21,370 nucleotides of DNA from a virus. A program made the translations under genes and the position numbers. Positions 3,162-18,150 of this stretch are shown piece after piece. The stretch covers positions 1 through 21,370 of the IMG/VR virus record IMGVR_UViG_3300001097_001974, one strand, 5' to 3'. A model generated the notes under the pieces. That model did not search any database. It was not told the origin of the DNA and saw only the letters and a list, made by a program, of their open reading frames with translations. Positions within the stretch are counted from its first letter, which is position 1; the number at the start of each line of letters is the position of its first letter.

Positions 3162-3409
3162 GCTGTCGCCTCCCCTGAACAGGTGCGGGCGTTTGCTTCG
3201 ATCCACGCCAGAACATCATCGGCGCGGTAACGAACGTGGCGGCCCAGCTTCAGGAATCGGGGACCATCACCGGCCCAGCGGGCGCGTTCGCACCATGCGG
3301 TAGACTTGCCAAGGTAGGCGGCTAGGGTTTTTTGATCCCATAGCCGGGGCATGGTTACGAGGGATTCAGAGGGTAGGGCGTTTACTTGGTTTTGGACGAT
3401 GCTTTGCAT
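3158..3409 (-). CDS. AlpA-type excisionase/regulator (E1)
   Basis: 83 aa, start ATG at 3409 with GAGG 7 bases upstream. Residues about 21-78 form the MerR-like winged helix-turn-helix typical of AlpA and phage excisionases: PRLWDQKTLAAYLGKS (recognition of the first HTH), then PRFLKLGRHVRYRADDVLAWIE, the usual 'GR-VRY-DVLAWI' ending. In P4- and PICI-type satellites AlpA proteins activate satellite genes and aid excision; that role is inferred here. A 77-bp gap with a strong palindrome separates it from the 209-aa gene, the only real gap in this operon, so a separate promoter is likely. Stop overlaps the next start as ATGA. Confidence 0.85.
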   Translation of the reverse strand: MQSIVQNQVNALPSESLVTMPRLWDQKTLAAYLGKSTAWCERARWAGDGPRFLKLGRHVRYRADDVLAWIEANARTCSGEATA

Positions 3410-3459
3410 GATTTAGCCTCATTCGAGTTTGAACAAGGCCATGAAAACAAAGGGTTACA

Positions 3460-3480
3460 GACACAAAGTTACTTAGTGTC
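3460..3480. promoter_or_regulatory. 21-bp palindromic operator candidate upstream of the AlpA-like gene (E1)
   Basis: Arms GACACAAAGT (3460-3469) and ACTTAGTGTC (3471-3480) around a central T match at 9 of 10 positions. It sits 50 bp upstream of the AlpA-like start and just past the 209-aa stop. The 10-mer CAAAGTTACT inside it (3464-3473) recurs at 5461-5470 upstream of the integrase gene, so one regulator may bind both promoters. No clear -10/-35 pair found. Confidence 0.6.
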
Positions 3481-3485
3481 CCGTT

Positions 3486-4115
3486 TTACTTGGCGGGGCT
3501 GAAATAACGCTTTAAAAAGTTTGAGCGCGACTGCGATCCAATTTCACCGCCGGTCACTTCGTCAATAGCAACTACTCGTTGGCCTTCTTCGCTTCGATAA
3601 ACGGCCACGTCCTCATTGAGCGCAAAAGGCAAATTTTCATCCTCTGGAATCCACGCCCATGCTTTCGGAAAGCTCACTCCTAGCCCGGCTAAATGCTGTG
3701 CTAGATCCGTTGCCCACTCGCTACGCTTCTTTGCCTGGCCTCCTTTTTGACTCCCTTTGCGTTGGGTTATGACTATTTGCAGGCGGTCAAAAACAAATAA
3801 CAGTTTATTGATTCGCTCCAGTTGCAGCCCTGTATCCAACGCCAAGCGGGCAGCAGTAAACATATCGCCATTATCCAACCCCACCAGCGCGCCACTGGCC
3901 ATTTGGTTTAGAAATCGGGCATCTCTAATGACGTTTGCGGGCATCTTGAAATCAGCGGTGTAAATCGTCTGGCCTAATGCTCCTGCGCGGTCGGCGATGT
4001 AGCTTAGGCGCTGCTTTAGCTGGCCTGCTTCGTCCAAGGTCAGCCATTCATCAAGATCAAGGCCGCCACTATGGGATTGCTTGAAAAGCTCCGAAACGGT
4101 AACTGATATTTTCAC
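3486..4115 (-). CDS. Unknown 209-aa satellite protein (E1)
   Basis: Start GTG at 4115, overlapping the integrase stop as GTGA, with GGGAGG 7 bases upstream; translation is probably coupled to integrase. No family recognised. The N-terminal half is helical and mildly acidic (DLDEWLTLDEAGQLKQRL). A basic linker KGSQKGGQAKKR lies at about 121-132, and the C-terminus ends with a polar, serine-rich tail. No signal peptide or membrane segment. The strict coupling to integrase suggests a role in excision, regulation or helper interference, but nothing in the sequence decides this. Confidence 0.8.
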   Translation of the reverse strand: MKISVTVSELFKQSHSGGLDLDEWLTLDEAGQLKQRLSYIADRAGALGQTIYTADFKMPANVIRDARFLNQMASGALVGLDNGDMFTAARLALDTGLQLERINKLLFVFDRLQIVITQRKGSQKGGQAKKRSEWATDLAQHLAGLGVSFPKAWAWIPEDENLPFALNEDVAVYRSEEGQRVVAIDEVTGGEIGSQSRSNFLKRYFSPAK

Positions 4116-5413
4116 GCCCGCGCCTCCCTGTTAAACGGGATAATCTGCGCCGTTGGCTCTGGCTGGCCCTCTACCATACGTTGCAGCATTTCGAGTGCTT
4201 CTAACTTTTCCTCGTGAAAGCCGTGGTGCTGATAATGCCTAGCCTGAACTCCCCCCAGGCCATGGCTAAGTAATTGCGCCAGAACGTCCGAACTCACGCG
4301 ATAAGGTTTGGCCGCCAGCCGGGTTTCAATGGTTGCCCGGATAGTGCCAGCGGTGAACGCTCCACCTTCAAGCTCTTTGGCGGTTTCCATATCCTTTTGA
4401 ATGCGCTTTACCAGATCGTTTAGATAAAGCTCGTGGGCAGGCTTCAGCCCGCCATCACAACTAAACACAAATTCACCTGCGCCGGTTACGTTTTCGATAC
4501 ATTGCAGCGCGTCAGGTAGCAATGGGATTGAATGGCGGCGGGGTTCGGTTCTGCGGCCTTTGTAGTCCAGCAGGGTCAAGGTTTGGGTGTCGCGGTCTAT
4601 GTCGTGCAGGGTGGCGCGGGATAGCTGAACAATGCGCTGGCCGCCGGTTAGGACGTGCAGCATACCAAGTGAGCGGGCGGGTTCCGGTTGGGCCTTTACT
4701 CTTGCCCAATACGCCTGAAATTCCGAAACGGAAAGGGCGCGCGTTCTAGCCTGGCTCGATCCTTCCACCTTTACCATATCGCGGGCGGGATTCATCTTGA
4801 TGTTCATATTCCGCAACTTCGCCGGGGCGTTCACATTGCCACGCGCCTTGATTGCTTCGGTAAAGGCTGAACGAATATAAGAGCGGATCTTGTCGGCTTG
4901 GCGTAGCTTGCCCGCATCCTTAACAGCGGCAACGATCTTTATGCAATCGTCTAGGTCTACATCAGCAGCCCGCTTGCTCCAGATCTTCCGCTGCTTTTTT
5001 TCAATGTCTGCGGTGATCTGATTAGACACGTTGCGCGCGGATTTCTTGCCTTTGGATTCCAGCAGATCCACATAGCCGGTCATCATGTCGCCAAACGTGG
5101 CGGCCTCTGCGGCCTTTTTTTCGGGGCGGGGGTCTATACCATTAGCCAGTTCTGCGTTGATCCCTTTGGCCCGCTTGCGGCCTGCTTCGGCGCTGGCGGC
5201 TTCGCCTGAAAACCGGCCAATGGTGACACGGATAACTTCACCTTTGAAGCGAGCTTGAAAGAACAGGGTTTTGCTGCCGTTCGGCATAACGCGAACGCCA
5301 TAACCCTGAATTGCGGTGTCCCAAACAATAAGGCGCTTTCCGTCTGTCGCCTCCATCCGGTTTAGATTGGTCTTGTTTAGCGTTTGCTTGGCTGGCTTTT
5401 TGGTATCGGTCAT
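4112..5413 (-). CDS. int: Tyrosine recombinase, P4-type integrase (E1)
   Basis: 433 aa, start ATG at 5413 with GGGGA upstream. N-terminal arm-binding domain of the DUF4102 kind (about 12-95: VWDTAIQGYGVRV, FFQARFKGEVIRVTIGRFSG), a central core-binding domain, and a C-terminal catalytic domain. Catalytic residues seen: R260 (TGGQR), K285 (LDYKGRR), R359 (GTIRA), H384 (LLSHG) and Y394 (ARHYQHH). The usual first His of the HxxR box is replaced (G356), a known kind of variation. Catalyses integration and excision of the satellite, presumably at tRNA-Leu(UAA), whose gene starts 249 bp upstream. First gene of the operon that runs on to primase. Repeated 11-bp-phased sites in its upstream region are candidate arm sites. 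Confidence 0.93.
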   Translation of the reverse strand: MTDTKKPAKQTLNKTNLNRMEATDGKRLIVWDTAIQGYGVRVMPNGSKTLFFQARFKGEVIRVTIGRFSGEAASAEAGRKRAKGINAELANGIDPRPEKKAAEAATFGDMMTGYVDLLESKGKKSARNVSNQITADIEKKQRKIWSKRAADVDLDDCIKIVAAVKDAGKLRQADKIRSYIRSAFTEAIKARGNVNAPAKLRNMNIKMNPARDMVKVEGSSQARTRALSVSEFQAYWARVKAQPEPARSLGMLHVLTGGQRIVQLSRATLHDIDRDTQTLTLLDYKGRRTEPRRHSIPLLPDALQCIENVTGAGEFVFSCDGGLKPAHELYLNDLVKRIQKDMETAKELEGGAFTAGTIRATIETRLAAKPYRVSSDVLAQLLSHGLGGVQARHYQHHGFHEEKLEALEMLQRMVEGQPEPTAQIIPFNREARA

Positions 5414-5661
5414 GGCGTCCCCGTATCTCGCTGGTGCATCACTGGTGCATCACTTTAATTCAAAGTTACTCATACACACGAGGGACTATTATGGCCTAAC
5501 AGGTTGAAACTTCAAAGCTATTAATGGTCAACAGGAATACTTCAAACTCAAACAAAAGGACTTAAAATCAATTTTTGGTTGATTAAAAGTCTATGTTTAT
5601 CAGATTCTTACGTGTGGTTTTCGGGGTCGGTGCATCGCTGGTGCATCGTGTAGAAATAAAT
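5414..5661. promoter_or_regulatory. Integrase upstream / att region with phased GGTGCATC repeats
   Basis: This 248-bp gap between integrase and tRNA carries two pairs of direct repeats: GGTGCATCA at 5433-5441 and 5444-5452, and GGTGCATCG at 5629-5637 and 5640-5648. Repeats within a pair are 11 bp apart, one helical turn. This arrangement is typical of arm-type binding sites for integrase or excisionase. CAAAGTTACT at 5461-5470 is shared with the palindrome upstream of the AlpA-like gene. The integrase promoter should lie here but no convincing -35/-10 pair was found. A weak TTGGTT-17-TATCAG at about 5575-5605 may serve the tRNA. Confidence 0.65.
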
Positions 5662-5748
5662 GCCCGGATGGTGGAATTGGTAGACACACAAGACTTAAAA
5701 TCTTGAGACTTTCGGGTCGTGCCGGTTCGATTCCGGCTCCGGGCACCA
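5662..5748 (+). tRNA. tRNA-Leu(UAA), first copy
   Basis: 87 nt. Acceptor arm GCCCGGA pairs with TCCGGGC; anticodon stem CAAGA/TCTTG encloses CTTAAAA, giving anticodon TAA; there is a long variable arm as in class II tRNAs; T-arm GCCGG-TTCGATT-CCGGC; the CCA end is encoded. It is complete and lies between the integrase of E1 and the distal end of E2. tRNA-Leu genes are frequent integration targets. Because the integrase is on the 5' side of the tRNA, the element itself must carry most or all of this gene if crossover is near the 3' end. A T-run follows immediately. Confidence 0.97.
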
Positions 5749-5954
5749 TTTTTTAAGCCGCTCGCATGGATTTGCCAAGCGGTCGCGACACCTGCCTAGT
5801 GGTGGTACAGCCAGGAGGGTACTGGCACCCGGTCACGTTGAAGACACGCAAAAAACAGCGCCACAAAAGAAGTCGTGCCTGTTGCCGCAGATAAAACCTG
5901 GCATGATTTTTGAAATGGTACGAGTCTTGCTTGTCATGCACATATAGTGCCAAA
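5749..5954. other. Gene-free gap between tRNA and HTH gene
   Basis: 206 bp at the distal edge of E2. It begins with a T-run after the tRNA and holds a weak inverted repeat CCGCT/AGCGG near 5758-5781. A 66-codon minus-strand reading is not convincing (no RBS, biased composition). If crossover is in the tRNA, this is the far att arm; no copy of the GGTGCATC arm repeat was found in it. Confidence 0.5.
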
Positions 5955-6296
5955 TCAAAAAACGTGCCAAGAAAAACCCGCCGGTAAAGGCGGGCCTGGT
6001 GCTGTTACTGGTGCGCCGGCGTGCGATTGCAGGACCGGGGTGCTATCAACCGATTCCTTTAGCGCCTCATCTCCTGAGTCGATTACCTTCTTGGCCTGGC
6101 GATAGGTTTCACCTGACCAGCCTACGGACTTGGCCGCTATGTCGGTGGACTTCCCTTCTGTCGAGGTAGGCAAATGTTTGCCTAGGTCACGCCGAACCCC
6201 GTTACGCCCAGCCAACGCCGCCTCAATCCGCCGCGCAATCTCCACCCGTTCACTGGGTGTAAAGTCCTTGCGGATGTTGTTCTCGGCTTGCTCCAT
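5955..6296 (-). CDS. Small ParB-like HTH protein (E2)
   Basis: 113 aa, ATG at 6296 with a weak ribosome site. Residues about 12-31 (FTPSERVEIARRIEAALAGR) and 52-71 (DIAAKSVGWSGETYRQAK) resemble the helical DNA-binding segment found downstream of ParB/Srx domains in phage and plasmid ParB-like proteins; the ParB nuclease/CTPase part is absent. Last gene of the capsid operon, but separated from the 69-aa gene by 243 bp, so it may have its own promoter. TGTTAA repeats just upstream suggest autoregulation. The last codons run through the operon terminator, and the C-terminal tail (from about 85) is proline-rich and low in conservation signals. A partition, copy-control or late-regulation role is possible. 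Confidence 0.7.
   Translation of the reverse strand: MEQAENNIRKDFTPSERVEIARRIEAALAGRNGVRRDLGKHLPTSTEGKSTDIAAKSVGWSGETYRQAKKVIDSGDEALKESVDSTPVLQSHAGAPVTAPGPPLPAGFSWHVF
5972..5994 (-). terminator. Rho-independent terminator of the capsid operon (E2)
   Basis: Minus-strand stem CCCGCC/GGCGGG with a 6-nt loop, followed by TTTTT. It lies before, not after, the stop codon (5955-5957) of the last gene, so RNA ending at the T-run would lack that stop codon. Confidence 0.85.
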
Positions 6297-6307
6297 GCCT
6301 GGCGAGA

Positions 6308-6335
6308 GTTAACAGCCGCTTGTTAAGTGTTAACA
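6308..6335. promoter_or_regulatory. Repeated TGTTAAC operator candidate (E2)
   Basis: GTTAACA (6308-6314), TGTTAAG (6321-6327) and TGTTAACA (6328-6335) lie 12-40 bp upstream of the HTH gene start, giving one inverted and one direct pair. The position fits a binding site for the adjacent HTH protein. The rest of 6336-6539 holds no gene I can support. Confidence 0.5.
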
Positions 6336-6539
6336 GGTTTGTGTGGGCGGGAAAAAATCCGAGCGTGGCTGAGGTTGTGGTTTCCGGATCCTGAAACTCG
6401 TGGATTCCTGATATACCCCCTGCCTATTACTTTCCGCCTGTCGATAGGGAAAACGTTATCAAGTGAGTTAGCAATAAAATAAGACTATCCCAACGGTTTT
6501 TAGGGGCGCTGGTTTGGACGTTTAACCTTCCCCCTCCCC

Positions 6540-6749
6540 CTATACAGCGCGGACTTCATACGTTGCGCCAGTGTGGCCACAGCGGGTTATAAAGCGATTG
6601 GCGCGGGCTTCCAGGTCGTCAACTTCCCGGCCATGTATGCGGGCCACCTGTTTGCCGTGGGCATGAATCACCGCGCAATAGGCTGTAGGGACTGGCTGGG
6701 CCTTCATTAGCCAGGCTTCGCTGTCTTGCTTGTAGTAGATGGGGCGCAT
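6540..6749 (-). CDS. Hypothetical 69-aa protein (E2)
   Basis: ATG at 6749, GGAG 9 bases upstream. Basic soluble protein with no signal or membrane segment: CAVIHAHGKQVARIHGREVDDLEARANRFITRCG. The central part reads like a compact alpha-beta fold (strand-strand-helix). It follows the capsid gene after a structured 119-bp spacer. No family recognised. A 76-codon frame overlaps it but is rich in P, G and R and lacks support. Possible capsid accessory by position only. Confidence 0.55.
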   Translation of the reverse strand: MRPIYYKQDSEAWLMKAQPVPTAYCAVIHAHGKQVARIHGREVDDLEARANRFITRCGHTGATYEVRAV

Positions 6750-6786
6750 GGGGTACTGCTCCAGAAAGGTTAAAACCCCGGCGTTT

Positions 6787-6857
6787 GCCTTCCGGCCCGT
6801 ACCTGTCGCCGGGTAACAGGTCAGGGTGATTGCCCGGAAGGCTCTCCACCAGGAGAG
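6787..6857 (-). ncRNA. Structured spacer after the capsid gene (E2)
   Basis: Read on the minus strand, two adjoining hairpins follow the capsid stop codon: CTCTCC/GGAGAG (6842-6857), then a larger one with outer 9-bp stem GCCTTCCGG/CCGGAAGGC (6787-6795 with 6834-6842) enclosing ACCTGT/ACAGGT (6801-6806, 6816-6821). The two stems share base 6842. No T-run follows, so it is not a standard terminator. It may protect the capsid mRNA from 3' decay or act as an attenuator for the 69-aa gene. A stand-alone RNA is not shown. Confidence 0.45.
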
Positions 6858-6868
6858 ACTGCTTTGCT

Positions 6869-7963
6869 TTAGATGCCGACGGTCACGGACAGCACAGCGC
6901 TCGGGCTGAACACTGCTAGGCCTGCGCGCAATTCCATGCGGGCGTTGATGATATTCTCTGCAAATCCAGCATCAACATAGCCAAATTCAAAGCGCGGGCT
7001 TTGCCGATCCAGCAGCGCCACTTGCGCCGGGTCGAACACCAGCACCTCACCAGCAGCCAGGCTAGAACTGGTGATAACCGGAACTCCCCAGATTGAAGGC
7101 GCGGCCCCATCAGCCCAGCCACCAGCAACGTACTGGCCATCGGTCGCACGTTCGGCGCGGATGGTTTGCCAGTCAGCGGGACTCATTACGACTACACCAG
7201 CGCTGTAGCCTTTCCCATCCAGCTCTGCGATAGCTTCACCGATTGCGTCAGGCACGTTGGTAGCGGTAGCCGTAAACGCGGTTGCTTCGGTTTTCAGGCC
7301 GCTGATTGCTCCAATGCCACCAACGCCACCGATTAGCTCGGCTTCCAGCTTGTCGAGGGCGGCGTGGCCCATCTTGTCCTGAATAAACATACCCAGGCCA
7401 GGAGCGTCAGCAAGCACCTGTTCAGACATTGGCAGCAATGCGGCGATAGTGGCAATGGTGGCGGTTTTCAGTTCAAACGCCATGGCCTGTGTGGCTTTGG
7501 TGTCGCCTTGCTTCGCTTGAACGGCTGCGGCGTTGGTGAATCCGTCAAGGCTCACGAACTCATAGCTACCAGACGTTGCAGCGAGTGCCGGTAGTACGTC
7601 CATCAGCGATAGGCGGCGGCGTACATCATTGCCTACCACGTTACCGCGCTGCGGTTGAAGCGGATAAACGCTATTCCCGGTCGTGTTGCCAACGTCACCC
7701 ACAAGCGATTTGATGCTGATATTCATCGGAACGGATGCGCTGCGGCTCTTGCGTTCGATCATCGCCTGCATGGCTGGGTCTTCTACCACTTGAGCGGATG
7801 CGGTCTTGGTGGTGGTGGTGCTATAGCCAAGAGGGGTTGAGCCCTTTTGGGCAAGGTCCAGAATTTGATGGTCCAGCTTAGTGATGTTCTCTTTCATGGC
7901 TTTCAATTCGCCGGAGGTACTGGCGGCGTGTTCTTCTACTGCTTTCAAGATTTGTTCGGACAT
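6869..7963 (-). CDS. HK97-type major capsid protein (E2)
   Basis: 364 aa, close to the family's usual 350-400. Residues 1-40 are a coiled-coil-like delta domain, followed by a linker to about 75-90 that the prohead protease should cut during maturation. The remainder has HK97-fold signatures: QGDTKATQAMAFELKTATIA (E-loop/P-domain region), then SPADWQTIRAERA, IWGVPVITSSS and VLVFDPAQVALLDRQ, ending with ARMELRAGLAVFSPSAVLSV. Forms the icosahedral shell. It lies 2 bp downstream of the protease, as in HK97-like phages, but the portal and terminase genes that normally precede the protease are absent. A satellite-specific, possibly smaller capsid is inferred. Confidence 0.93.
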   Translation of the reverse strand: MSEQILKAVEEHAASTSGELKAMKENITKLDHQILDLAQKGSTPLGYSTTTTKTASAQVVEDPAMQAMIERKSRSASVPMNISIKSLVGDVGNTTGNSVYPLQPQRGNVVGNDVRRRLSLMDVLPALAATSGSYEFVSLDGFTNAAAVQAKQGDTKATQAMAFELKTATIATIAALLPMSEQVLADAPGLGMFIQDKMGHAALDKLEAELIGGVGGIGAISGLKTEATAFTATATNVPDAIGEAIAELDGKGYSAGVVVMSPADWQTIRAERATDGQYVAGGWADGAAPSIWGVPVITSSSLAAGEVLVFDPAQVALLDRQSPRFEFGYVDAGFAENIINARMELRAGLAVFSPSAVLSVTVGI

Positions 7964-7965
7964 GA

Positions 7966-8628
7966 TTATTTACCTGTGCGGATGATGTTGGTTGCCGCTT
8001 TCAGTGCGGCGATTATGGCCTGCTCGTTTTCTTCATCCGCTTGCACATCGTCACAATGCGTCAGAACGGGAAAACCAACCGAAGTGAGCCGCTTCGCTTG
8101 GCGTCGGGAAAGCCCCAGGGCGTCACGCACCAGGGTTTCAAATTCTCGGGCGTTGGTGCAGTCAGCGAAGCTCTTAACCTCGCTGATTAAGGCGCGGGGA
8201 TTAGCCGGTACGGATACCAAGCTGATCTCCAGCAGATCCACTTTTGTAAAATGCCGCACTCCGTCCTGTTCGTAGCTGTCGCCAGGCTGCGAGGTAAACC
8301 CAATGCTCAGGGAAAGCCCGCCGGACTTCAGCAGCGCGTAAGCGTCAGCGCCTTTGGTTATGGCCAATTCTACTTTGCCGGTTCCGGTCAGTCCTTCGGC
8401 GGTTTCTTTCAGTTCCAGCCAGGAGCCAACCGGCTCGTTATGGTCGTGTTGCCACAGCAGGGGCGGAAGGTTGCCGTTCTTCTCGTAAGCTGCCAGCGAC
8501 TCTACAAACGCGCCGGGTAAGATCACATCGCCAGTACGGTCAGGCTCACCAAACGCCCAGGCCAGGGCGGTGAACTCCCCGGCGGCATTGGTTGCCCGCT
8601 TTAGGTGTAGCTCTTGGGAAAACTTCAT
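7966..8628 (-). CDS. HK97-type prohead protease, S78 family (E2)
   Basis: 220 aa, start ATG at 8628 overlapping the 119-aa stop as ATGA. Opening pattern FTALAWAFGEPDRTGDVILPGAF is typical of the family. Catalytic candidates: H61 or H63 in LLWQHDHNEPVG, S108 in LSLSIGF, and E134 in DLLEISLVSVPANP. Cleaves the capsid delta domain and itself during shell maturation. The C-terminal part after about 155 is helical and may act as scaffold or targeting tail. Directly followed by the major capsid gene. Confidence 0.93.
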   Translation of the reverse strand: MKFSQELHLKRATNAAGEFTALAWAFGEPDRTGDVILPGAFVESLAAYEKNGNLPPLLWQHDHNEPVGSWLELKETAEGLTGTGKVELAITKGADAYALLKSGGLSLSIGFTSQPGDSYEQDGVRHFTKVDLLEISLVSVPANPRALISEVKSFADCTNAREFETLVRDALGLSRRQAKRLTSVGFPVLTHCDDVQADEENEQAIIAALKAATNIIRTGK

Positions 8629-8984
8629 CCTTCGGCTTCCTGTTTGGCCAGTTCGCGGATTTTCTCGGTCACGGCATCTGCATCGGATCGAAGCTCTTTA
8701 GACAGGTACGGCCATAGGTGTTCGGGAACATGGGCGGCAACGATGGTGGCAAGCCTCATTTGTTCGTCTACTTCAGCCCGCTGGTTGCGGTCGTCTTGCT
8801 CTTTGGCTTCGGCGTTGTGTTCTTCCAGCTTAGCCAGGCCCACCAGCAGGCCCATGGCCAGAACATCACCGGCATCAGCAGCGGCCCGCAGTTCGCGCAA
8901 GTAATCGCGCTGTGTTTGTTTACTGGGTAGCAGGTTTCGCTTTCCGGTTCTGCCTACGTTCAATGATTCGTTCATGGGTGCCAC
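8625..8984 (-). CDS. Hypothetical 119-aa first gene of the capsid operon (E2)
   Basis: Start uncertain: GTG at 8984 or ATG at 8975 (three residues shorter); neither has a strong ribosome site. Basic N-terminus (GRTGKRNLLPSKQTQRDYLRELR) followed by a long, charged, mostly helical body (LAKLEEHNAEAKEQDDRNQRAEVDEQMRLATIVAAHVP). No HTH or ATPase motif, so a small-terminase call is not supported. Its coupling to protease and capsid points to scaffold, size determination or DNA-packaging adaptor, undecided. Confidence 0.75.
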   Translation of the reverse strand: MAPMNESLNVGRTGKRNLLPSKQTQRDYLRELRAAADAGDVLAMGLLVGLAKLEEHNAEAKEQDDRNQRAEVDEQMRLATIVAAHVPEHLWPYLSKELRSDADAVTEKIRELAKQEAEG

Positions 8985-9017
8985 GCTTGGGTAGGGTTAG
9001 GATCAGTTCAATAGTGT

Positions 9018-9031
9018 TATGTTATAACATA
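9018..9031. promoter_or_regulatory. Perfect 14-bp palindrome upstream of the capsid operon (E2)
   Basis: TATGTTATAACATA, 34-43 bp upstream of the first capsid-operon gene. On the minus strand it follows and partly overlaps TTGATA, a good -35 candidate, while the -10 is poor (TATTGA at 16 bp). That fits an operator over a promoter that needs help. Conserved in E1 at 182-195 with one change. Confidence 0.6.
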
Positions 9032-9085
9032 TCAACTCTAGTTACCAGTCGATTACCGGCGTTCTCGAAATAACACAACGTGCCG

Positions 9086-9153
9086 GGGTGCCTGGGTGCC
9101 TGGGCTATGCTTTCGGGGTTTCGTCTACTGAGTGAGGACTGCTAAAAGTGTGC
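9086..9153. promoter_or_regulatory. Tandem GGGTGCCT and conserved 42-bp block (E2)
   Basis: GGGTGCCT is repeated at 9086-9093 and 9094-9101. The block 9112-9153 contains TTCGTCTACTGAGTG (9120-9134) and aligns with 199-240 of E1. It lies between the capsid operon promoter and the origin. A cos/pac-like helper recognition site is one possibility; nothing proves it. Confidence 0.45.
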
Positions 9154-9190
9154 GCTACTAATTCTTAGCCGGTCTGCGGGGTCAGTGCTT

Positions 9191-9314
9191 TGGCGGTGTT
9201 ATCCGCCAGCCTGAATAAGTTGAATTAGTTGTATGCGCGTACGATATGAAAAGTATAAGAACACCCTATATATATTCTTCACTTCGTACGCGTATACAAC
9301 TTTTACAACTAATT
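9191..9314. other. Presumptive replication origin, inverted-repeat type (E2)
   Basis: A 17-bp inverted repeat, GTTGTATGCGCGTACGA (9228-9244) and TCGTACGCGTATACAAC (9284-9300), with one mismatch, flanks a 39-bp AT-rich core (9245-9283). The core has a smaller dyad, AAGAA/TTCTT. Outer AATTAGTTGTA motifs (9224-9233 and, inverted, 9304-9314) extend the symmetry, and TACAAC is doubled on the right arm. A TGGCGG/CCGCCA hairpin lies at 9191-9208. The structure touches the primase stop codon, the same position the iteron array has in E1. It resembles a replication origin or cruciform; a bidirectional terminator is less likely because there is no T-run. Confidence 0.6.
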
Positions 9315-11874
9315 AAGAGGCGGCCTCCTGAATCGCACGATACCGTTCTGCTCTTTGGGATTTAATGCGCTCACTGTGCGCCTTGAACTGCTCAAATACT
9401 TTCGGGTTGGAAGCATAAACACCATCGGAGCGCCGGCCCCGTTTGCCCGCTATAGGTGGTGGTGTTATATCCGCAATCCATCCCAGTTCGACCAGGTAAT
9501 CAATGGCGTTTTCTGTTTGCCGGTTGTCGCTTCCTTGCCAGTAGGTGGCGTTCCTTGTCAGGTCACCACGCTTAAATGTCTTCCACGACTTGCTCAGGAT
9601 CGCTTCAGCAGCCGCAACAACCAGCCCTTGAACATCTCCCGCCTGCTCATCAAGTATGCGGTAGACTGACTCAGAATGCCGGTACATGACACGCATGAAC
9701 TTAATGGCCATCGTCATTGTCTCTTTGCTTACGTCACCCCCTGGCTGTCGCTCGTCGGCTGCGGCGTGAATGCAATGCAAAGCAAAGGCGGCTCGTCCCA
9801 ACATGCCAGGGAACTTGTTTAGGTGTTCTGCGAACCTTTGGGCTGCCGTTCTGGTTGCCAGCTTCCGTATGTTGTTGTGGTAGTCCTGCATCATCAGCTT
9901 GGCCGGAGTAGAAAGCCTTGCAGAGACCTGCTCTTTCCCTGTCCAGTTATGGATGCGCTCAATTAATAGGTTGTTGTTCATCTGAGTGAATGGTGATTCC
10001 TTCGCCATGTAATTCACATCGCCGGCCGGTTGCAGGCAGTACATCAAAAACCGTTGATAGAGTCCGTCAGATCCCCCGCCCTTTTGCTTGAACAAATAGG
10101 CCAGTTTTTCAGGCTGGATGCCTGCCAAAATGCCCACGCTGAAATTGTCGATAACAATCGGCTGAGGCTTGCCGGCGCGGTTTATAGTCACGTAACCGCC
10201 ATCATAAGATCGCAGATAAACGCCACGGTCTTTCCCGCCATCTTTTCCGCTGTATGCATCCATCCTGCCAATGAACTCGGTTATTTCGTGGTGGTACATA
10301 TTCACGCCTTCGGGGTTGTCTTGCAGTAACAAGCCCAGCGCCTCGGTGGTGGTGTCCAGGGCATGGCGCTGTTTCCATGGCGGCTTTGGTGGTGGGTCTT
10401 GCTTGTCGCCCTTGGCGTTCTGGCAGGCTTTAATCCACTTAGACAGGGCTGCGTTTGACTCGTCAAGTAATGCTTTGTCGATATGTTCGGCCCCTTGTTT
10501 GGAGTCGTTCAATATCGGGCTTTTCGCAGTACCTGAGTCACCAACTAGGCCGCCCCATTGATAGGCCGGCACCTTGAATGGCCCCAGATCCAGCCTTGCC
10601 CGATGGTCTACAGTATTGGCCGCCGTCATAAAAAGGCAAAAACCATAAGCGCCGGCATCAAAACCGGATTGTTCCGACTTCTCGGCTGCAAGTGTCCTGA
10701 ATTGCTCCGGTAATATCTCCATTGGAAAAGAAGGTACAACGTGTTCAGCGAATAGGTCGGCAGGCTCCGGCCAAAGGCTGCTCTCGCGTTCGCTGTCGGC
10801 GCTTGCGGTAAGCCTTGCCAGTTGGTCGGCGGTGAATCGTGACTGTTCTGGCGGGCCTCCTTTCATGCCGTTTTCACGTGCAAAATGAATAAGCGTTCCA
10901 ATGGTTCGCCCTTCGCTGCGCTGTATTGAGTCCCATGTTTTTTGAAACTTGGCGTCTTTGTGCTTCGGTGCCTGGGCGCTCCAGTGGTATGCGTCAGCAT
11001 GGCCGGCATCGCCTAATTCATGCTTTACAGCCGATACGATGTTAAACCAGTGGTGGTACCCCTCATCATTGTTCGGAATCCACTTGAGCAAGTCCGGCAC
11101 CTTATGGCCATCCTCCCCCCGGTGTGGCGCTGTTCCCGTCTCGGGCTTGGCTTTGGGCTTAGGCACCAAACAATGACGCTGTGCAATCTCATCAAAGGCC
11201 CGCAAAATAGCATCTATGTCGTCTGCGGTAAGCTCCACCAGATCGGAGGGGCATACTTCCGACAATGTTTTGCTGTTGTCACCGTTAATATCATTCCATT
11301 GATACGGCTGGCCGGTGTCTGGGTGGATCTGGTAGGCAACGAATTGTTGCCCTTTGCCCAGAATCTCAATCTGATTTTTCACCTCGCGGCGGGTGTCAAC
11401 TTTGCCATCTTCCGCAATCGGGTAGACTTCAGGCGATAGCTGTTTACTTTGTGGCGCTCTCGTTTTGTACGGAATCAGAAATTTAGGCGCGTTACCCACT
11501 CTTATCAGCTTTTCGCCGGTACGCTTTGCCAGCAGTGGCCGGATGAAATCCAGCAGGTCAGCAGCCAGCGCCGGATGTGGCGTATCAACATCAAGCCCCT
11601 GAGTGCTCCATTCATCGGGCGCGGGCATTCCGCAAATAATGCCGATACCAGTACCAGCCCGCCATTCATCGGCGCGGCGCGGGTTGTTTGTCCAGTCCAT
11701 AGCATCAGCGCCAGCGGGGTATTTCTTTTTAGGCGCAAGAAAACAACACGGGTAATTGGTCAGCAGCTTATTGGCTGATTTCTGATCAATAATGCTATAC
11801 TGAGCTTGTCCGCTTTGCTCTGTTCCCTCGTTCCCGGTTGCCGCCGGGGCGGGGCGATTCTTTAGATCTTCCAT
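9313..11874 (-). CDS. Prim-pol/helicase replication protein, type B helicase half, chimeric (E2)
   Basis: 853 aa from the ATG at 11874. The N-terminal prim-pol and PriCT-like part has the same key residues as E1 (D95, D97, H184). The C-terminal half from about residue 365 is DUF3987-like: Walker A GDSGTAKS (K451, S452), a Walker B-like MYHHEITEF in which the usual Asp is His (H529, E530), then FIGRMDAYSGKDGG, YLRSYDGGYVTINRAGK and SVGILAGIQPEKL. The sequence is a hybrid: bases up to 11496 equal E3, bases from 11384 equal E1, so crossover lies within 113 bp in the prim-pol region. Followed at once by the inverted-repeat origin. Confidence 0.88.
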   Translation of the reverse strand: MEDLKNRPAPAATGNEGTEQSGQAQYSIIDQKSANKLLTNYPCCFLAPKKKYPAGADAMDWTNNPRRADEWRAGTGIGIICGMPAPDEWSTQGLDVDTPHPALAADLLDFIRPLLAKRTGEKLIRVGNAPKFLIPYKTRAPQSKQLSPEVYPIAEDGKVDTRREVKNQIEILGKGQQFVAYQIHPDTGQPYQWNDINGDNSKTLSEVCPSDLVELTADDIDAILRAFDEIAQRHCLVPKPKAKPETGTAPHRGEDGHKVPDLLKWIPNNDEGYHHWFNIVSAVKHELGDAGHADAYHWSAQAPKHKDAKFQKTWDSIQRSEGRTIGTLIHFARENGMKGGPPEQSRFTADQLARLTASADSERESSLWPEPADLFAEHVVPSFPMEILPEQFRTLAAEKSEQSGFDAGAYGFCLFMTAANTVDHRARLDLGPFKVPAYQWGGLVGDSGTAKSPILNDSKQGAEHIDKALLDESNAALSKWIKACQNAKGDKQDPPPKPPWKQRHALDTTTEALGLLLQDNPEGVNMYHHEITEFIGRMDAYSGKDGGKDRGVYLRSYDGGYVTINRAGKPQPIVIDNFSVGILAGIQPEKLAYLFKQKGGGSDGLYQRFLMYCLQPAGDVNYMAKESPFTQMNNNLLIERIHNWTGKEQVSARLSTPAKLMMQDYHNNIRKLATRTAAQRFAEHLNKFPGMLGRAAFALHCIHAAADERQPGGDVSKETMTMAIKFMRVMYRHSESVYRILDEQAGDVQGLVVAAAEAILSKSWKTFKRGDLTRNATYWQGSDNRQTENAIDYLVELGWIADITPPPIAGKRGRRSDGVYASNPKVFEQFKAHSERIKSQRAERYRAIQEAAS

Positions 11875-11876
11875 AA

Positions 11877-12158
11877 TCACGCCTCCCCGTCTTTGGTCAG
11901 CCGCACGATAATAGCGCCGCTTTTGTTCTTATCGTGTTTCGCTACGCCCTGCTTACACAGGCGATCAATACCATGTCGAACGTCAGCGGGTGTGAACTCT
12001 TGCGCCTTGCCCAGCGCCACAAGCGAGGCGCGTGTTTTTGGGCCTCGGGTCAACTTCTCTGTTATGAGTTGGTCTAGCGCATATATAGCGCCGTTTTTTT
12101 GGCGGCGGCGCAATTTCTCGTAGTCTGGAATTTCAGGGCGAAATATTGAGAAGCTCAT
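11877..12158 (-). CDS. Small winged-helix-like protein (E2)
   Basis: 93 aa, identical to the E1 protein. ATGA overlap with the AlpA-like stop; GTGA overlap (stop TGA at 11877-11879) just before the primase start, placing it in a tight three-gene unit. The E3 allele differs at about a dozen positions, mostly in the first half, while the HTH-like segment and basic hairpin are kept. Confidence 0.75.
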   Translation of the reverse strand: MSFSIFRPEIPDYEKLRRRQKNGAIYALDQLITEKLTRGPKTRASLVALGKAQEFTPADVRHGIDRLCKQGVAKHDKNKSGAIIVRLTKDGEA

Positions 12159-12406
12159 GCTGTCGCCTCCCCTGAACAGGTGCGGGCGTTTGCTTCGATC
12201 CACGCCAGAACATCATCGGCGCGGTAACGAACGTGGCGGCCCAGCTTCAGGAATCGGGGACCATCACCGGCCCAGCGGGCGCGTTCGCACCATGCGGTAG
12301 ACTTGCCAAGGTAGGCGGCTAGGGTTTTTTGATCCCATAGCCGGGGCATGGTTACGAGGGATTCAGAGGGTAGGGCGTTTACTTGGTTTTGGACGATGCT
12401 TTGCAT
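12155..12406 (-). CDS. AlpA-type excisionase/regulator (E2)
   Basis: 83 aa, identical to the E1 copy, with the same GAGG ribosome site and upstream palindrome. In E3 the gene at this position is a different DNA-binding protein, which shows the regulator can be exchanged while the coupling to the next gene is preserved. Two identical AlpA genes in one array would cross-regulate. Confidence 0.85.
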   Translation of the reverse strand: MQSIVQNQVNALPSESLVTMPRLWDQKTLAAYLGKSTAWCERARWAGDGPRFLKLGRHVRYRADDVLAWIEANARTCSGEATA

Positions 12407-12456
12407 GATTTAGCCTCATTCGAGTTTGAACAAGGCCATGAAAACAAAGGGTTACA

Positions 12457-12477
12457 GACACAAAGTTACTTAGTGTC
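12457..12477. promoter_or_regulatory. Palindromic operator candidate upstream of the AlpA-like gene (E2)
   Basis: Same 10+1+10 dyad as in E1, 51 bp before the AlpA-like start. Confidence 0.6.
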
Positions 12478-12482
12478 CCGTT

Positions 12483-13112
12483 TTACTTGGCGGGGCTGAA
12501 ATAACGCTTTAAAAAGTTTGAGCGCGACTGCGATCCAATTTCACCGCCGGTCACTTCGTCAATAGCAACTACTCGTTGGCCTTCTTCGCTTCGATAAACG
12601 GCCACGTCCTCATTGAGCGCAAAAGGCAAATTTTCATCCTCTGGAATCCACGCCCATGCTTTCGGAAAGCTCACTCCTAGCCCGGCTAAATGCTGTGCTA
12701 GATCCGTTGCCCACTCGCTACGCTTCTTTGCCTGGCCTCCTTTTTGACTCCCTTTGCGTTGGGTTATGACTATTTGCAGGCGGTCAAAAACAAATAACAG
12801 TTTATTGATTCGCTCCAGTTGCAGCCCTGTATCCAACGCCAAGCGGGCAGCAGTAAACATATCGCCATTATCCAACCCCACCAGCGCGCCACTGGCCATT
12901 TGGTTTAGAAATCGGGCATCTCTAATGACGTTTGCGGGCATCTTGAAATCAGCGGTGTAAATCGTCTGGCCTAATGCTCCTGCGCGGTCGGCGATGTAGC
13001 TTAGGCGCTGCTTTAGCTGGCCTGCTTCGTCCAAGGTCAGCCATTCATCAAGATCAAGGCCGCCACTATGGGATTGCTTGAAAAGCTCCGAAACGGTAAC
13101 TGATATTTTCAC
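12483..13112 (-). CDS. Unknown 209-aa satellite protein (E2)
   Basis: Identical to the E1 protein, GTG start in GTGA overlap with the integrase stop. No recognised domain. Its retention intact in both copies only shows that the duplication is recent, not that it is essential. Confidence 0.8.
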   Translation of the reverse strand: MKISVTVSELFKQSHSGGLDLDEWLTLDEAGQLKQRLSYIADRAGALGQTIYTADFKMPANVIRDARFLNQMASGALVGLDNGDMFTAARLALDTGLQLERINKLLFVFDRLQIVITQRKGSQKGGQAKKRSEWATDLAQHLAGLGVSFPKAWAWIPEDENLPFALNEDVAVYRSEEGQRVVAIDEVTGGEIGSQSRSNFLKRYFSPAK

Positions 13113-14410
13113 GCCCGCGCCTCCCTGTTAAACGGGATAATCTGCGCCGTTGGCTCTGGCTGGCCCTCTACCATACGTTGCAGCATTTCGAGTGCTTCTA
13201 ACTTTTCCTCGTGAAAGCCGTGGTGCTGATAATGCCTAGCCTGAACTCCCCCCAGGCCATGGCTAAGTAATTGCGCCAGAACGTCCGAACTCACGCGATA
13301 AGGTTTGGCCGCCAGCCGGGTTTCAATGGTTGCCCGGATAGTGCCAGCGGTGAACGCTCCACCTTCAAGCTCTTTGGCGGTTTCCATATCCTTTTGAATG
13401 CGCTTTACCAGATCGTTTAGATAAAGCTCGTGGGCAGGCTTCAGCCCGCCATCACAACTAAACACAAATTCACCTGCGCCGGTTACGTTTTCGATACATT
13501 GCAGCGCGTCAGGTAGCAATGGGATTGAATGGCGGCGGGGTTCGGTTCTGCGGCCTTTGTAGTCCAGCAGGGTCAAGGTTTGGGTGTCGCGGTCTATGTC
13601 GTGCAGGGTGGCGCGGGATAGCTGAACAATGCGCTGGCCGCCGGTTAGGACGTGCAGCATACCAAGTGAGCGGGCGGGTTCCGGTTGGGCCTTTACTCTT
13701 GCCCAATACGCCTGAAATTCCGAAACGGAAAGGGCGCGCGTTCTAGCCTGGCTCGATCCTTCCACCTTTACCATATCGCGGGCGGGATTCATCTTGATGT
13801 TCATATTCCGCAACTTCGCCGGGGCGTTCACATTGCCACGCGCCTTGATTGCTTCGGTAAAGGCTGAACGAATATAAGAGCGGATCTTGTCGGCTTGGCG
13901 TAGCTTGCCCGCATCCTTAACAGCGGCAACGATCTTTATGCAATCGTCTAGGTCTACATCAGCAGCCCGCTTGCTCCAGATCTTCCGCTGCTTTTTTTCA
14001 ATGTCTGCGGTGATCTGATTAGACACGTTGCGCGCGGATTTCTTGCCTTTGGATTCCAGCAGATCCACATAGCCGGTCATCATGTCGCCAAACGTGGCGG
14101 CCTCTGCGGCCTTTTTTTCGGGGCGGGGGTCTATACCATTAGCCAGTTCTGCGTTGATCCCTTTGGCCCGCTTGCGGCCTGCTTCGGCGCTGGCGGCTTC
14201 GCCTGAAAACCGGCCAATGGTGACACGGATAACTTCACCTTTGAAGCGAGCTTGAAAGAACAGGGTTTTGCTGCCGTTCGGCATAACGCGAACGCCATAA
14301 CCCTGAATTGCGGTGTCCCAAACAATAAGGCGCTTTCCGTCTGTCGCCTCCATCCGGTTTAGATTGGTCTTGTTTAGCGTTTGCTTGGCTGGCTTTTTGG
14401 TATCGGTCAT
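13109..14410 (-). CDS. int: Tyrosine recombinase, P4-type integrase (E2)
   Basis: 433 aa, identical to the E1 integrase, with catalytic R260, K285, R359, H384 and Y394 intact. It lies 248 bp from the second tRNA-Leu. Two active integrases and repeated att regions in direct orientation would allow excision of E2 alone as an 8997-bp circle. Confidence 0.93.
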   Translation of the reverse strand: MTDTKKPAKQTLNKTNLNRMEATDGKRLIVWDTAIQGYGVRVMPNGSKTLFFQARFKGEVIRVTIGRFSGEAASAEAGRKRAKGINAELANGIDPRPEKKAAEAATFGDMMTGYVDLLESKGKKSARNVSNQITADIEKKQRKIWSKRAADVDLDDCIKIVAAVKDAGKLRQADKIRSYIRSAFTEAIKARGNVNAPAKLRNMNIKMNPARDMVKVEGSSQARTRALSVSEFQAYWARVKAQPEPARSLGMLHVLTGGQRIVQLSRATLHDIDRDTQTLTLLDYKGRRTEPRRHSIPLLPDALQCIENVTGAGEFVFSCDGGLKPAHELYLNDLVKRIQKDMETAKELEGGAFTAGTIRATIETRLAAKPYRVSSDVLAQLLSHGLGGVQARHYQHHGFHEEKLEALEMLQRMVEGQPEPTAQIIPFNREARA

Positions 14411-14658
14411 GGCGTCCCCGTATCTCGCTGGTGCATCACTGGTGCATCACTTTAATTCAAAGTTACTCATACACACGAGGGACTATTATGGCCTAACAGG
14501 TTGAAACTTCAAAGCTATTAATGGTCAACAGGAATACTTCAAACTCAAACAAAAGGACTTAAAATCAATTTTTGGTTGATTAAAAGTCTATGTTTATCAG
14601 ATTCTTACGTGTGGTTTTCGGGGTCGGTGCATCGCTGGTGCATCGTGTAGAAATAAAT
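14411..14658. promoter_or_regulatory. Integrase upstream / att region (second copy)
   Basis: Identical to 5414-5661. GGTGCATC pairs at 14430-14438/14441-14449 and 14626-14634/14637-14645; the CAAAGTTACT motif at 14458-14467. Because this is an internal junction between E2 and E3, it should represent an attP-like arrangement on the integrase side. Confidence 0.65.
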
Positions 14659-14745
14659 GCCCGGATGGTGGAATTGGTAGACACACAAGACTTAAAATCT
14701 TGAGACTTTCGGGTCGTGCCGGTTCGATTCCGGCTCCGGGCACCA
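14659..14745 (+). tRNA. tRNA-Leu(UAA), second copy
   Basis: Identical to the copy at 5662-5748, including the encoded CCA and following T-run. Both copies look functional. A tandem array thus multiplies the dose of this tRNA. Confidence 0.97.
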
Positions 14746-14951
14746 TTTTTTAAGCCGCTCGCATGGATTTGCCAAGCGGTCGCGACACCTGCCTAGTGGT
14801 GGTACAGCCAGGAGGGTACTGGCACCCGGTCACGTTGAAGACACGCAAAAAACAGCGCCACAAAAGAAGTCGTGCCTGTTGCCGCAGATAAAACCTGGCA
14901 TGATTTTTGAAATGGTACGAGTCTTGCTTGTCATGCACATATAGTGCCAAA
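14746..14951. other. Gene-free gap between tRNA and HTH gene (E3)
   Basis: Identical to 5749-5954. No gene supported. Confidence 0.5.
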
Positions 14952-15293
14952 TCAAAAAACGTGCCAAGAAAAACCCGCCGGTAAAGGCGGGCCTGGTGCT
15001 GTTACTGGTGCGCCGGCGTGCGATTGCAGGACCGGGGTGCTATCAACCGATTCCTTTAGCGCCTCATCTCCTGAGTCGATTACCTTCTTGGCCTGGCGAT
15101 AGGTTTCACCTGACCAGCCTACGGACTTGGCCGCTATGTCGGTGGACTTCCCTTCTGTCGAGGTAGGCAAATGTTTGCCTAGGTCACGCCGAACCCCGTT
15201 ACGCCCAGCCAACGCCGCCTCAATCCGCCGCGCAATCTCCACCCGTTCACTGGGTGTAAAGTCCTTGCGGATGTTGTTCTCGGCTTGCTCCAT
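14952..15293 (-). CDS. Small ParB-like HTH protein (E3)
   Basis: 113 aa, identical to the E2 protein. Helical HTH-like segments at about 12-31 and 52-71; proline-rich tail encoded across the terminator. It is the distal gene of the E3 capsid operon, next to the tRNA junction. Confidence 0.7.
   Translation of the reverse strand: MEQAENNIRKDFTPSERVEIARRIEAALAGRNGVRRDLGKHLPTSTEGKSTDIAAKSVGWSGETYRQAKKVIDSGDEALKESVDSTPVLQSHAGAPVTAPGPPLPAGFSWHVF
14969..14991 (-). terminator. Rho-independent terminator of the capsid operon (E3)
   Basis: Same hairpin and T-run as at 5972-5994, again upstream of the stop codon of the last gene (14952-14954). Confidence 0.85.
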
Positions 15294-15304
15294 GCCTGGC
15301 GAGA

Positions 15305-15332
15305 GTTAACAGCCGCTTGTTAAGTGTTAACA
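15305..15332. promoter_or_regulatory. Repeated TGTTAAC operator candidate (E3)
   Basis: Copy of 6308-6335. Bases 15333-15536 beyond it hold no gene I can support. Confidence 0.5.
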
Positions 15333-15536
15333 GGTTTGTGTGGGCGGGAAAAAATCCGAGCGTGGCTGAGGTTGTGGTTTCCGGATCCTGAAACTCGTGG
15401 ATTCCTGATATACCCCCTGCCTATTACTTTCCGCCTGTCGATAGGGAAAACGTTATCAAGTGAGTTAGCAATAAAATAAGACTATCCCAACGGTTTTTAG
15501 GGGCGCTGGTTTGGACGTTTAACCTTCCCCCTCCCC

Positions 15537-15746
15537 CTATACAGCGCGGACTTCATACGTTGCGCCAGTGTGGCCACAGCGGGTTATAAAGCGATTGGCG
15601 CGGGCTTCCAGGTCGTCAACTTCCCGGCCATGTATGCGGGCCACCTGTTTGCCGTGGGCATGAATCACCGCGCAATAGGCTGTAGGGACTGGCTGGGCCT
15701 TCATTAGCCAGGCTTCGCTGTCTTGCTTGTAGTAGATGGGGCGCAT
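15537..15746 (-). CDS. Hypothetical 69-aa protein (E3)
   Basis: Identical to the E2 copy at 6540-6749; GGAG 9 bases before the ATG. Function unknown; position between capsid and HTH genes is its only clue. Confidence 0.55.
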   Translation of the reverse strand: MRPIYYKQDSEAWLMKAQPVPTAYCAVIHAHGKQVARIHGREVDDLEARANRFITRCGHTGATYEVRAV

Positions 15747-15783
15747 GGGGTACTGCTCCAGAAAGGTTAAAACCCCGGCGTTT

Positions 15784-15854
15784 GCCTTCCGGCCCGTACC
15801 TGTCGCCGGGTAACAGGTCAGGGTGATTGCCCGGAAGGCTCTCCACCAGGAGAG
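15784..15854 (-). ncRNA. Structured spacer after the capsid gene (E3)
   Basis: Same adjoining hairpins as at 6787-6857. Confidence 0.45.
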
Positions 15855-15865
15855 ACTGCTTTGCT

Positions 15866-16960
15866 TTAGATGCCGACGGTCACGGACAGCACAGCGCTCG
15901 GGCTGAACACTGCTAGGCCTGCGCGCAATTCCATGCGGGCGTTGATGATATTCTCTGCAAATCCAGCATCAACATAGCCAAATTCAAAGCGCGGGCTTTG
16001 CCGATCCAGCAGCGCCACTTGCGCCGGGTCGAACACCAGCACCTCACCAGCAGCCAGGCTAGAACTGGTGATAACCGGAACTCCCCAGATTGAAGGCGCG
16101 GCCCCATCAGCCCAGCCACCAGCAACGTACTGGCCATCGGTCGCACGTTCGGCGCGGATGGTTTGCCAGTCAGCGGGACTCATTACGACTACACCAGCGC
16201 TGTAGCCTTTCCCATCCAGCTCTGCGATAGCTTCACCGATTGCGTCAGGCACGTTGGTAGCGGTAGCCGTAAACGCGGTTGCTTCGGTTTTCAGGCCGCT
16301 GATTGCTCCAATGCCACCAACGCCACCGATTAGCTCGGCTTCCAGCTTGTCGAGGGCGGCGTGGCCCATCTTGTCCTGAATAAACATACCCAGGCCAGGA
16401 GCGTCAGCAAGCACCTGTTCAGACATTGGCAGCAATGCGGCGATAGTGGCAATGGTGGCGGTTTTCAGTTCAAACGCCATGGCCTGTGTGGCTTTGGTGT
16501 CGCCTTGCTTCGCTTGAACGGCTGCGGCGTTGGTGAATCCGTCAAGGCTCACGAACTCATAGCTACCAGACGTTGCAGCGAGTGCCGGTAGTACGTCCAT
16601 CAGCGATAGGCGGCGGCGTACATCATTGCCTACCACGTTACCGCGCTGCGGTTGAAGCGGATAAACGCTATTCCCGGTCGTGTTGCCAACGTCACCCACA
16701 AGCGATTTGATGCTGATATTCATCGGAACGGATGCGCTGCGGCTCTTGCGTTCGATCATCGCCTGCATGGCTGGGTCTTCTACCACTTGAGCGGATGCGG
16801 TCTTGGTGGTGGTGGTGCTATAGCCAAGAGGGGTTGAGCCCTTTTGGGCAAGGTCCAGAATTTGATGGTCCAGCTTAGTGATGTTCTCTTTCATGGCTTT
16901 CAATTCGCCGGAGGTACTGGCGGCGTGTTCTTCTACTGCTTTCAAGATTTGTTCGGACAT
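15866..16960 (-). CDS. HK97-type major capsid protein (E3)
   Basis: 364 aa, identical to the E2 protein, with N-terminal delta domain and HK97-fold body intact. Two identical capsid genes in one array mean either could supply the shell; the copies cannot be told apart by short reads. Confidence 0.93.
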   Translation of the reverse strand: MSEQILKAVEEHAASTSGELKAMKENITKLDHQILDLAQKGSTPLGYSTTTTKTASAQVVEDPAMQAMIERKSRSASVPMNISIKSLVGDVGNTTGNSVYPLQPQRGNVVGNDVRRRLSLMDVLPALAATSGSYEFVSLDGFTNAAAVQAKQGDTKATQAMAFELKTATIATIAALLPMSEQVLADAPGLGMFIQDKMGHAALDKLEAELIGGVGGIGAISGLKTEATAFTATATNVPDAIGEAIAELDGKGYSAGVVVMSPADWQTIRAERATDGQYVAGGWADGAAPSIWGVPVITSSSLAAGEVLVFDPAQVALLDRQSPRFEFGYVDAGFAENIINARMELRAGLAVFSPSAVLSVTVGI

Positions 16961-16962
16961 GA

Positions 16963-17625
16963 TTATTTACCTGTGCGGATGATGTTGGTTGCCGCTTTCA
17001 GTGCGGCGATTATGGCCTGCTCGTTTTCTTCATCCGCTTGCACATCGTCACAATGCGTCAGAACGGGAAAACCAACCGAAGTGAGCCGCTTCGCTTGGCG
17101 TCGGGAAAGCCCCAGGGCGTCACGCACCAGGGTTTCAAATTCTCGGGCGTTGGTGCAGTCAGCGAAGCTCTTAACCTCGCTGATTAAGGCGCGGGGATTA
17201 GCCGGTACGGATACCAAGCTGATCTCCAGCAGATCCACTTTTGTAAAATGCCGCACTCCGTCCTGTTCGTAGCTGTCGCCAGGCTGCGAGGTAAACCCAA
17301 TGCTCAGGGAAAGCCCGCCGGACTTCAGCAGCGCGTAAGCGTCAGCGCCTTTGGTTATGGCCAATTCTACTTTGCCGGTTCCGGTCAGTCCTTCGGCGGT
17401 TTCTTTCAGTTCCAGCCAGGAGCCAACCGGCTCGTTATGGTCGTGTTGCCACAGCAGGGGCGGAAGGTTGCCGTTCTTCTCGTAAGCTGCCAGCGACTCT
17501 ACAAACGCGCCGGGTAAGATCACATCGCCAGTACGGTCAGGCTCACCAAACGCCCAGGCCAGGGCGGTGAACTCCCCGGCGGCATTGGTTGCCCGCTTTA
17601 GGTGTAGCTCTTGGGAAAACTTCAT
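16963..17625 (-). CDS. HK97-type prohead protease, S78 family (E3)
   Basis: 220 aa, identical to the E2 protease, with His (61/63), Ser108 and Glu134 present. Starts inside the stop of the 119-aa gene (ATGA) and ends 2 bp before the capsid gene. Confidence 0.93.
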   Translation of the reverse strand: MKFSQELHLKRATNAAGEFTALAWAFGEPDRTGDVILPGAFVESLAAYEKNGNLPPLLWQHDHNEPVGSWLELKETAEGLTGTGKVELAITKGADAYALLKSGGLSLSIGFTSQPGDSYEQDGVRHFTKVDLLEISLVSVPANPRALISEVKSFADCTNAREFETLVRDALGLSRRQAKRLTSVGFPVLTHCDDVQADEENEQAIIAALKAATNIIRTGK

Positions 17626-17981
17626 CCTTCGGCTTCCTGTTTGGCCAGTTCGCGGATTTTCTCGGTCACGGCATCTGCATCGGATCGAAGCTCTTTAGAC
17701 AGGTACGGCCATAGGTGTTCGGGAACATGGGCGGCAACGATGGTGGCAAGCCTCATTTGTTCGTCTACTTCAGCCCGCTGGTTGCGGTCGTCTTGCTCTT
17801 TGGCTTCGGCGTTGTGTTCTTCCAGCTTAGCCAGGCCCACCAGCAGGCCCATGGCCAGAACATCACCGGCATCAGCAGCGGCCCGCAGTTCGCGCAAGTA
17901 ATCGCGCTGTGTTTGTTTACTGGGTAGCAGGTTTCGCTTTCCGGTTCTGCCTACGTTCAATGATTCGTTCATGGGTGCCAC
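17622..17981 (-). CDS. Hypothetical 119-aa first gene of the capsid operon (E3)
   Basis: Identical to the E2 copy. GTG (17981) or ATG (17972) start. Charged helical protein without a recognised domain. Confidence 0.75.
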   Translation of the reverse strand: MAPMNESLNVGRTGKRNLLPSKQTQRDYLRELRAAADAGDVLAMGLLVGLAKLEEHNAEAKEQDDRNQRAEVDEQMRLATIVAAHVPEHLWPYLSKELRSDADAVTEKIRELAKQEAEG

Positions 17982-18014
17982 GCTTGGGTAGGGTTAGGAT
18001 CAGTTCAATAGTGT

Positions 18015-18028
18015 TATGTTATAACATA
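18015..18028. promoter_or_regulatory. Perfect 14-bp palindrome upstream of the capsid operon (E3)
   Basis: TATGTTATAACATA, copy of 9018-9031, with the same TTGATA on the minus strand. Confidence 0.6.
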
Positions 18029-18082
18029 TCAACTCTAGTTACCAGTCGATTACCGGCGTTCTCGAAATAACACAACGTGCCG

Positions 18083-18150
18083 GGGTGCCTGGGTGCCTGG
18101 GCTATGCTTTCGGGGTTTCGTCTACTGAGTGAGGACTGCTAAAAGTGTGC
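18083..18150. promoter_or_regulatory. Tandem GGGTGCCT and conserved block (E3)
   Basis: Copy of 9086-9153, including TTCGTCTACTGAGTG at 18117-18131. Confidence 0.45.

Follow-up and report, generated by a model that had tools for sequence, protein, structure and literature searches.

Homologous recombination between phage satellites has been proposed before, in the form of a circular satellite that enters another one, and for one identical PICI pair an assembly artefact of an active element was suspected (PMC10111431). IMG/VR contigs that carry one genome two or more times have been termed probable artefacts of assembly, and large duplications led to the removal of 6,543 direct-terminal-repeat contigs as assembler concatenation (PMC8116208). 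Cycles in metagenome graphs that correspond to no real circle are also well known (PMC9104695). A literature search on unequal crossing-over in prophages returned matches mostly from eukaryotic satellite DNA. The stretch analysed here, a 21,370-nt virus contig (the window), contains a phage satellite of about 9 kb from a Marinobacter-type bacterium, and contains it twice. The doubled unit could be a real recombination product, but it is also what an assembler would write on walking one circular or looped unit twice.

The exact repeat and the satellite unit

The repeat was defined by base-by-base comparison of the window with itself at an offset of 8997. Positions 2387-11496 and 11384-20493 form one unbroken match of 9110 bp with 0 mismatches, and the two copies overlap by 113 bp, a stretch that is shared by all three primase-helicase genes (E1, E2 and E3) of the window.

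2387-11496, unstranded: exact repeat, first lap (9110 bp, offset 8997)
11384-20493, unstranded: exact repeat, second lap (same comparison at offset 8997)
11384-11496 (also 2387-2499 and 20381-20493), unstranded: 113-bp stretch identical in E1, E2 and E3, with the E2 junction somewhere within
562-2883, minus strand: E1 primase-helicase, 773 aa; Prim-Pol and PriCT_2, with a C-terminal helicase-like half unrelated to E3
9313-11880, minus strand: E2 primase-helicase, 855 aa; start of E1 type, remainder of E3 type (DUF3987)
18310-20871, minus strand: E3 primase-helicase, 853 aa; Prim-Pol, PriCT_2 and DUF3987

E2 is identical to E3 over 9313-11496 and to E1 from 11384 up to the E2 start, so that its N-terminal side is that of E1 and its C-terminal side that of E3. 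The sequence-only reading had placed E3 identity at 9313-11496 and E1 identity at 11384-11874, and these coordinates are right, as is the exactness of the 8997-offset repeat; its two copies agree at all 9110 positions, with no scattered differences. Homology between E1 and E3 themselves is confined to 1780-3161 versus 19774-21149 (93.5% over about 1.38 kb), a region that takes in the primase start together with the small gene next to it, beyond which the sequences are unrelated. The runs of identity between E1 and E3 measure, in descending order, 113, 96, 85, 68 and 65 bp and less, the 113-bp run being the longest. Since E1 and E3 are clearly different outside the repeat, the pattern of identity among the three genes is far above chance expectation. 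Below, l and r denote the sequence to the left and right of the 113-bp stretch, and 1 and 3 its E1 and E3 versions.

The genes of the unit are a tyrosine integrase, an AlpA/HTH_17 protein, a Prim-Pol/PriCT_2 primase-helicase, a prohead protease, an HK97-type capsid protein and small genes without assigned function.

5559-5569 (second copy 14556-14566), plus strand: att core GACTTAAAATC, with the integrase end joined to the left arm, attP-type; core shared with the ELB17 element
5662-5748 (second copy 14659-14745), plus strand: tRNA-Leu(UAA) carried by the element
5754-5829 (second copy 14751-14826), plus strand: conserved hairpin motif at the left end of the satellite
13109-14410 (first lap 4112-5413), minus strand: tyrosine integrase, second lap
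12155-12406 (first lap 3158-3409), minus strand: AlpA/HTH_17-like excisionase-regulator
6869-7963 (second lap 15866-16960), minus strand: HK97-fold major capsid protein
7966-8628 (second lap 16963-17625), minus strand: prohead serine protease, Peptidase_S78

The integrase end runs straight into the left arm at both cores (5559 and 14556), which makes the two junctions attP-type; from one core to the next the unit spans a single whole satellite of 8997 bp. Within the 21,370-nt window there is no chromosomal attL or attR and no host flank, and the window itself thus shows no integration. The site is indicated by an element of Marinobacter sp. ELB17 (NZ_AAXY01000025; L006), whose integrase is 99% identical in protein sequence to that of the window. 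This element sits in the anticodon loop of a tRNA-Leu(UAA) gene and splits it (5552-5748 here; L006 18829-19131 and 9797-9862), and it brings a complete substitute tRNA-Leu 133 bp inside its left end. Given this integrase, the shared core and the intact tRNA-Leu restored when the ELB17 flanks are joined, the unit belongs to the integrative satellites at tRNA-Leu(UAA). The tRNA-Leu copies were also considered as marks of chromosomal junctions and rejected, being element-borne and 133 bp from the core both in ELB17 and here.

Related integrases with similar split sites are found in four Marinobacter genomes. In these four carriers the arms are separated by about 9-10 kb or fall on separate contigs, and an exact tandem of one satellite was found in none of them. 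Searches of IMG/VR with both primases, the integrase, a 59-bp shared stretch and the att junction returned no close relatives, the capsid gave a single match at 23%, and a plasmid search for relatives returned none. Satellites at this site whose integrases are related do not have one common set of head genes (6869-8984; L006 15596-18551; L020 6338-7732). The window has capsid and protease, ELB17 has a ClpP-capsid fusion together with a Nu1-type small terminase, and a further genome (G012) has a large-terminase-like gene.

The hairpin motif, of about 75 bp and directly after the tRNA, occurs in 21 of 124 Marinobacter genomes and contains at least two predicted hairpins with compensatory changes; it has no match in Rfam. 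At most of the loci examined it adjoins a tRNA-Leu, -Arg, -Ser or -Val gene, and from this variety of neighbours it follows that the motif does not depend on the integrase. Perhaps it is a packaging (cos/pac) site or a small RNA.

Domain exchange in the primase-helicase genes

The C-terminal half of E3 contains DUF3987, and that of E1 has no Pfam match. A Marinobacter genome (G006) carries, on its contig C4, the E3 helicase module (98.1% DNA identity, 18187-19776) fused to a different N-terminal part, which has a weak Toprim_3 match; the breakpoint lies within a few bases of the point where E1 and E3 diverge (1780 / 19774). With this fusion three combinations exist: Prim-Pol with DUF3987 (E3), Prim-Pol with the E1-type helicase (E1 and a gene on G006 contig C1), and a Toprim-type start with DUF3987 (G006 C4). 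Whole-domain exchange among the primase genes thus stands on independent evidence from a Marinobacter genome, whether or not the array in the window is real. The swap occurs at a fixed linker (1780, 10777 and 19774; L034 9056-11305), one DUF3987 module (98%) being paired with either a Prim-Pol/PriCT or a Toprim-type start.

The E1-type primase of G006 C1 (91%) belongs to an element near tRNA-Ser and changes allegiance along its length. Up to 2808, to the right of the junction, 10 of 12 informative sites carry the E1 base; every scorable one between 2812 and the start of the gene carries the E3 base, and the small gene upstream of the primase is of r3 type. The parental phase is therefore not settled by this gene, and the use of G006 C1 and C4 as outgroups for phase was dropped, both being mosaic between the E1 and E3 types. 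What the gene does show is frequent recombination in this region.

Two further features adjoin these genes. Downstream of the E1 primase, at 270-524, there are iteron-like GTATAAAA/TTTTATAC repeats, a candidate replication origin. At the 3' end of the E2 primase (9211-9317) there is a large imperfect inverted repeat with arms of 47 nt, 79% complementary, which recurs at offset 8997.

Origin of the doubled unit

Exact as the repeat is, E2 as a hybrid gene in a living cell is unproven, and sequence alone does not decide how the repeat arose. The weights given below to the competing explanations are judgements rather than computed values, and what they leave over is assigned to mixtures.

With a likelihood somewhat better than even, the doubled unit is an 8997-bp cycle of one unit walked twice by the assembler. 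A complete tRNA-Leu satellite cycle of 8997 bp would then be traversed twice in the window, entered from sibling sequence (1-2386) and left into sibling sequence (20494-21370) through the 113-bp stretch shared by the primase genes. The second lap would most likely have been written by the assembler, the source being either a circular or tandem satellite with E2 or a single-copy E1-E3 pair, and in the case of the pair the graph would have one loop at the 113-bp stretch. Short reads were probably used, and copy number would then have been set by the assembler and not by the cell; the number of turns around a cycle cannot be read from an assembly graph.

Two simpler genomes, one with E1-E3 only and one consisting of the 8997-bp circle and a single l1-r3 sibling, each contain all of the window's k-mers at all k values tested between 55 and 114, and at k of 115 and above some window k-mers are missing from both. 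Judged by these counts, the E2 junction must be present in the DNA if the assembly used k >= 115, and need not be if it used k <= 114. At k = 99 to 114 the graph of the E1-E3-only genome branches at a single point, and a de Bruijn loop at k values in this range is forced to use the 113-bp run, whereas homologous recombination, weighted by run length, would use it with a chance of about 0.16-0.32. The position of the junction in the longest run of E1/E3 identity therefore counts for the graph loop. Counted in the same direction are the zero differences in 9110 bp, the nature of the sequence as a 21370-bp virus contig of IMG/VR, where doubled genomes are a known artefact (PMC8116208), the identical PICI pair under the same suspicion (PMC10111431) and the arms of the Marinobacter carriers, which are never joined as a tandem; with both junctions attP-type and no host flank, the unit also looks as expected of a circle. 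On the other side, tandem satellites and satellite recombination do occur. Paired reads normally resolve a 113-bp repeat, which counts against a pure artefact, and so does the final k = 127 of many short-read pipelines, at which reads must contain the E2 junction.

If the array is real, the same string results from an unequal crossover, from the return of a hybrid circle by the integrase or from the entry of an E2 circle into an l1-r3 satellite. The sequence-only reading held that unequal crossing-over creates exactly this arrangement. Its arithmetic is right and the string is reproduced, with a hybrid gene at a single exchange point flanked in tandem by both parental-type genes, but the other routes and an assembly loop give an identical string. 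It also took E2 for the chimera, which fits the sequence pattern; because that pattern is symmetric, calling E2 the hybrid is a choice, and the nearest outgroup, from Marinobacter, is itself mosaic here.

A real array of three satellites with E2 as the hybrid is rather unlikely. Neighbours with primase starts 93.5% similar would have recombined unequally in the 113-bp run, or an excised hybrid circle would have been reinserted by the integrase at an att junction. The fit to the string is exact, the longest run of identity is the likeliest single site for homologous recombination, and the outgroup E1-type primase is E1-like just to the right of the junction, as for a parental E1. Tandems of PICIs have been published, and G006 holds two different elements in tandem at a tRNA-Leu 3' fragment; against this, none of the four Marinobacter carriers has an exact tandem of one satellite. 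In G006 this tandem, at C2 557244-566640 (L036, L019), involves different integrases. G006 also has two contig ends with exactly 95 bp in common inside a satellite, which suggests that assemblies break at satellites.

That RecA-type recombination in the shared primase segment of a real array multiplies satellites and makes new primase-helicase combinations without the integrase is unlikely. Such a route would add to the domain swapping observed between relatives. Independence from the integrase, as claimed earlier, is not established: both att junctions are intact, and an integrase route yields the same product.

The roles may also be reversed, a circular satellite with a native E2 having entered an l1-r3 sibling through one homologous crossover within the 113-bp run, as a dimer or twice, with E1 and E3 as the hybrids and E2 as the parent, an account that we regard as very doubtful. 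It yields the identical string, the unit is a whole satellite with attP closure, and such entry of one circular PICI into another has been proposed (PMC10111431). The r3-like start of the G006 E1-type primase, with the r3-type small gene upstream, means that an l1...r3 arrangement exists in nature, but the E1-like sites of the same gene to the right of the junction conflict with this phase, and a dimer or a second event is needed.

Set against these readings of a real array, a cycle walked twice by the assembler would make the contig a warning that a one-unit loop in a contig can mimic a perfect recombination product. A real array would be a clean natural case in which homologous recombination both amplifies and diversifies satellites, a process so far proposed from a few tandem PICIs.

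Comparison with known systems

The defining head genes of capsid-forming PICIs (cfPICIs) are those for terminase, portal, protease, capsid and connectors, and such elements are induced by a helper phage that also provides their tails. The window shares with cfPICIs the integrase, the AlpA-like regulator, the primase and capsid and protease genes of its own; however, capsid and protease are the only members of the head-gene set recognised in the complete 8997-bp unit, which is without a recognisable terminase large subunit, portal or head-tail connector. Assignment to the cfPICIs was rejected on the missing portal and terminase genes. The ELB17 satellite resembles the window in its integrase, in an att core within the tRNA-Leu(UAA) anticodon loop and in having its own tRNA-Leu, but it is a single copy with proper attL and attR, and it has another primase, the ClpP-capsid fusion and the Nu1-type small terminase. 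The concatenated contigs described with CheckV come from the same collection and likewise repeat one genome per contig, which was attributed to assembly (PMC8116208). In the window, by contrast, the flanks are sibling sequences and not more of the same genome, and the repeat was therefore entered and left through the shared stretch. The tandem or recombination-fused PICIs (PMC10111431, Fig. 5D-F) also present two adjacent satellites and a duplicated segment; the proposal there is that a circular satellite entered by homologous recombination, and one identical pair is suspected to be an assembly artefact. Whereas those PICIs are enterobacterial and located at fis or tRNA-Ile2, the satellite described here is a Marinobacter-type element of tRNA-Leu, and its exchange point lies inside the primase gene.
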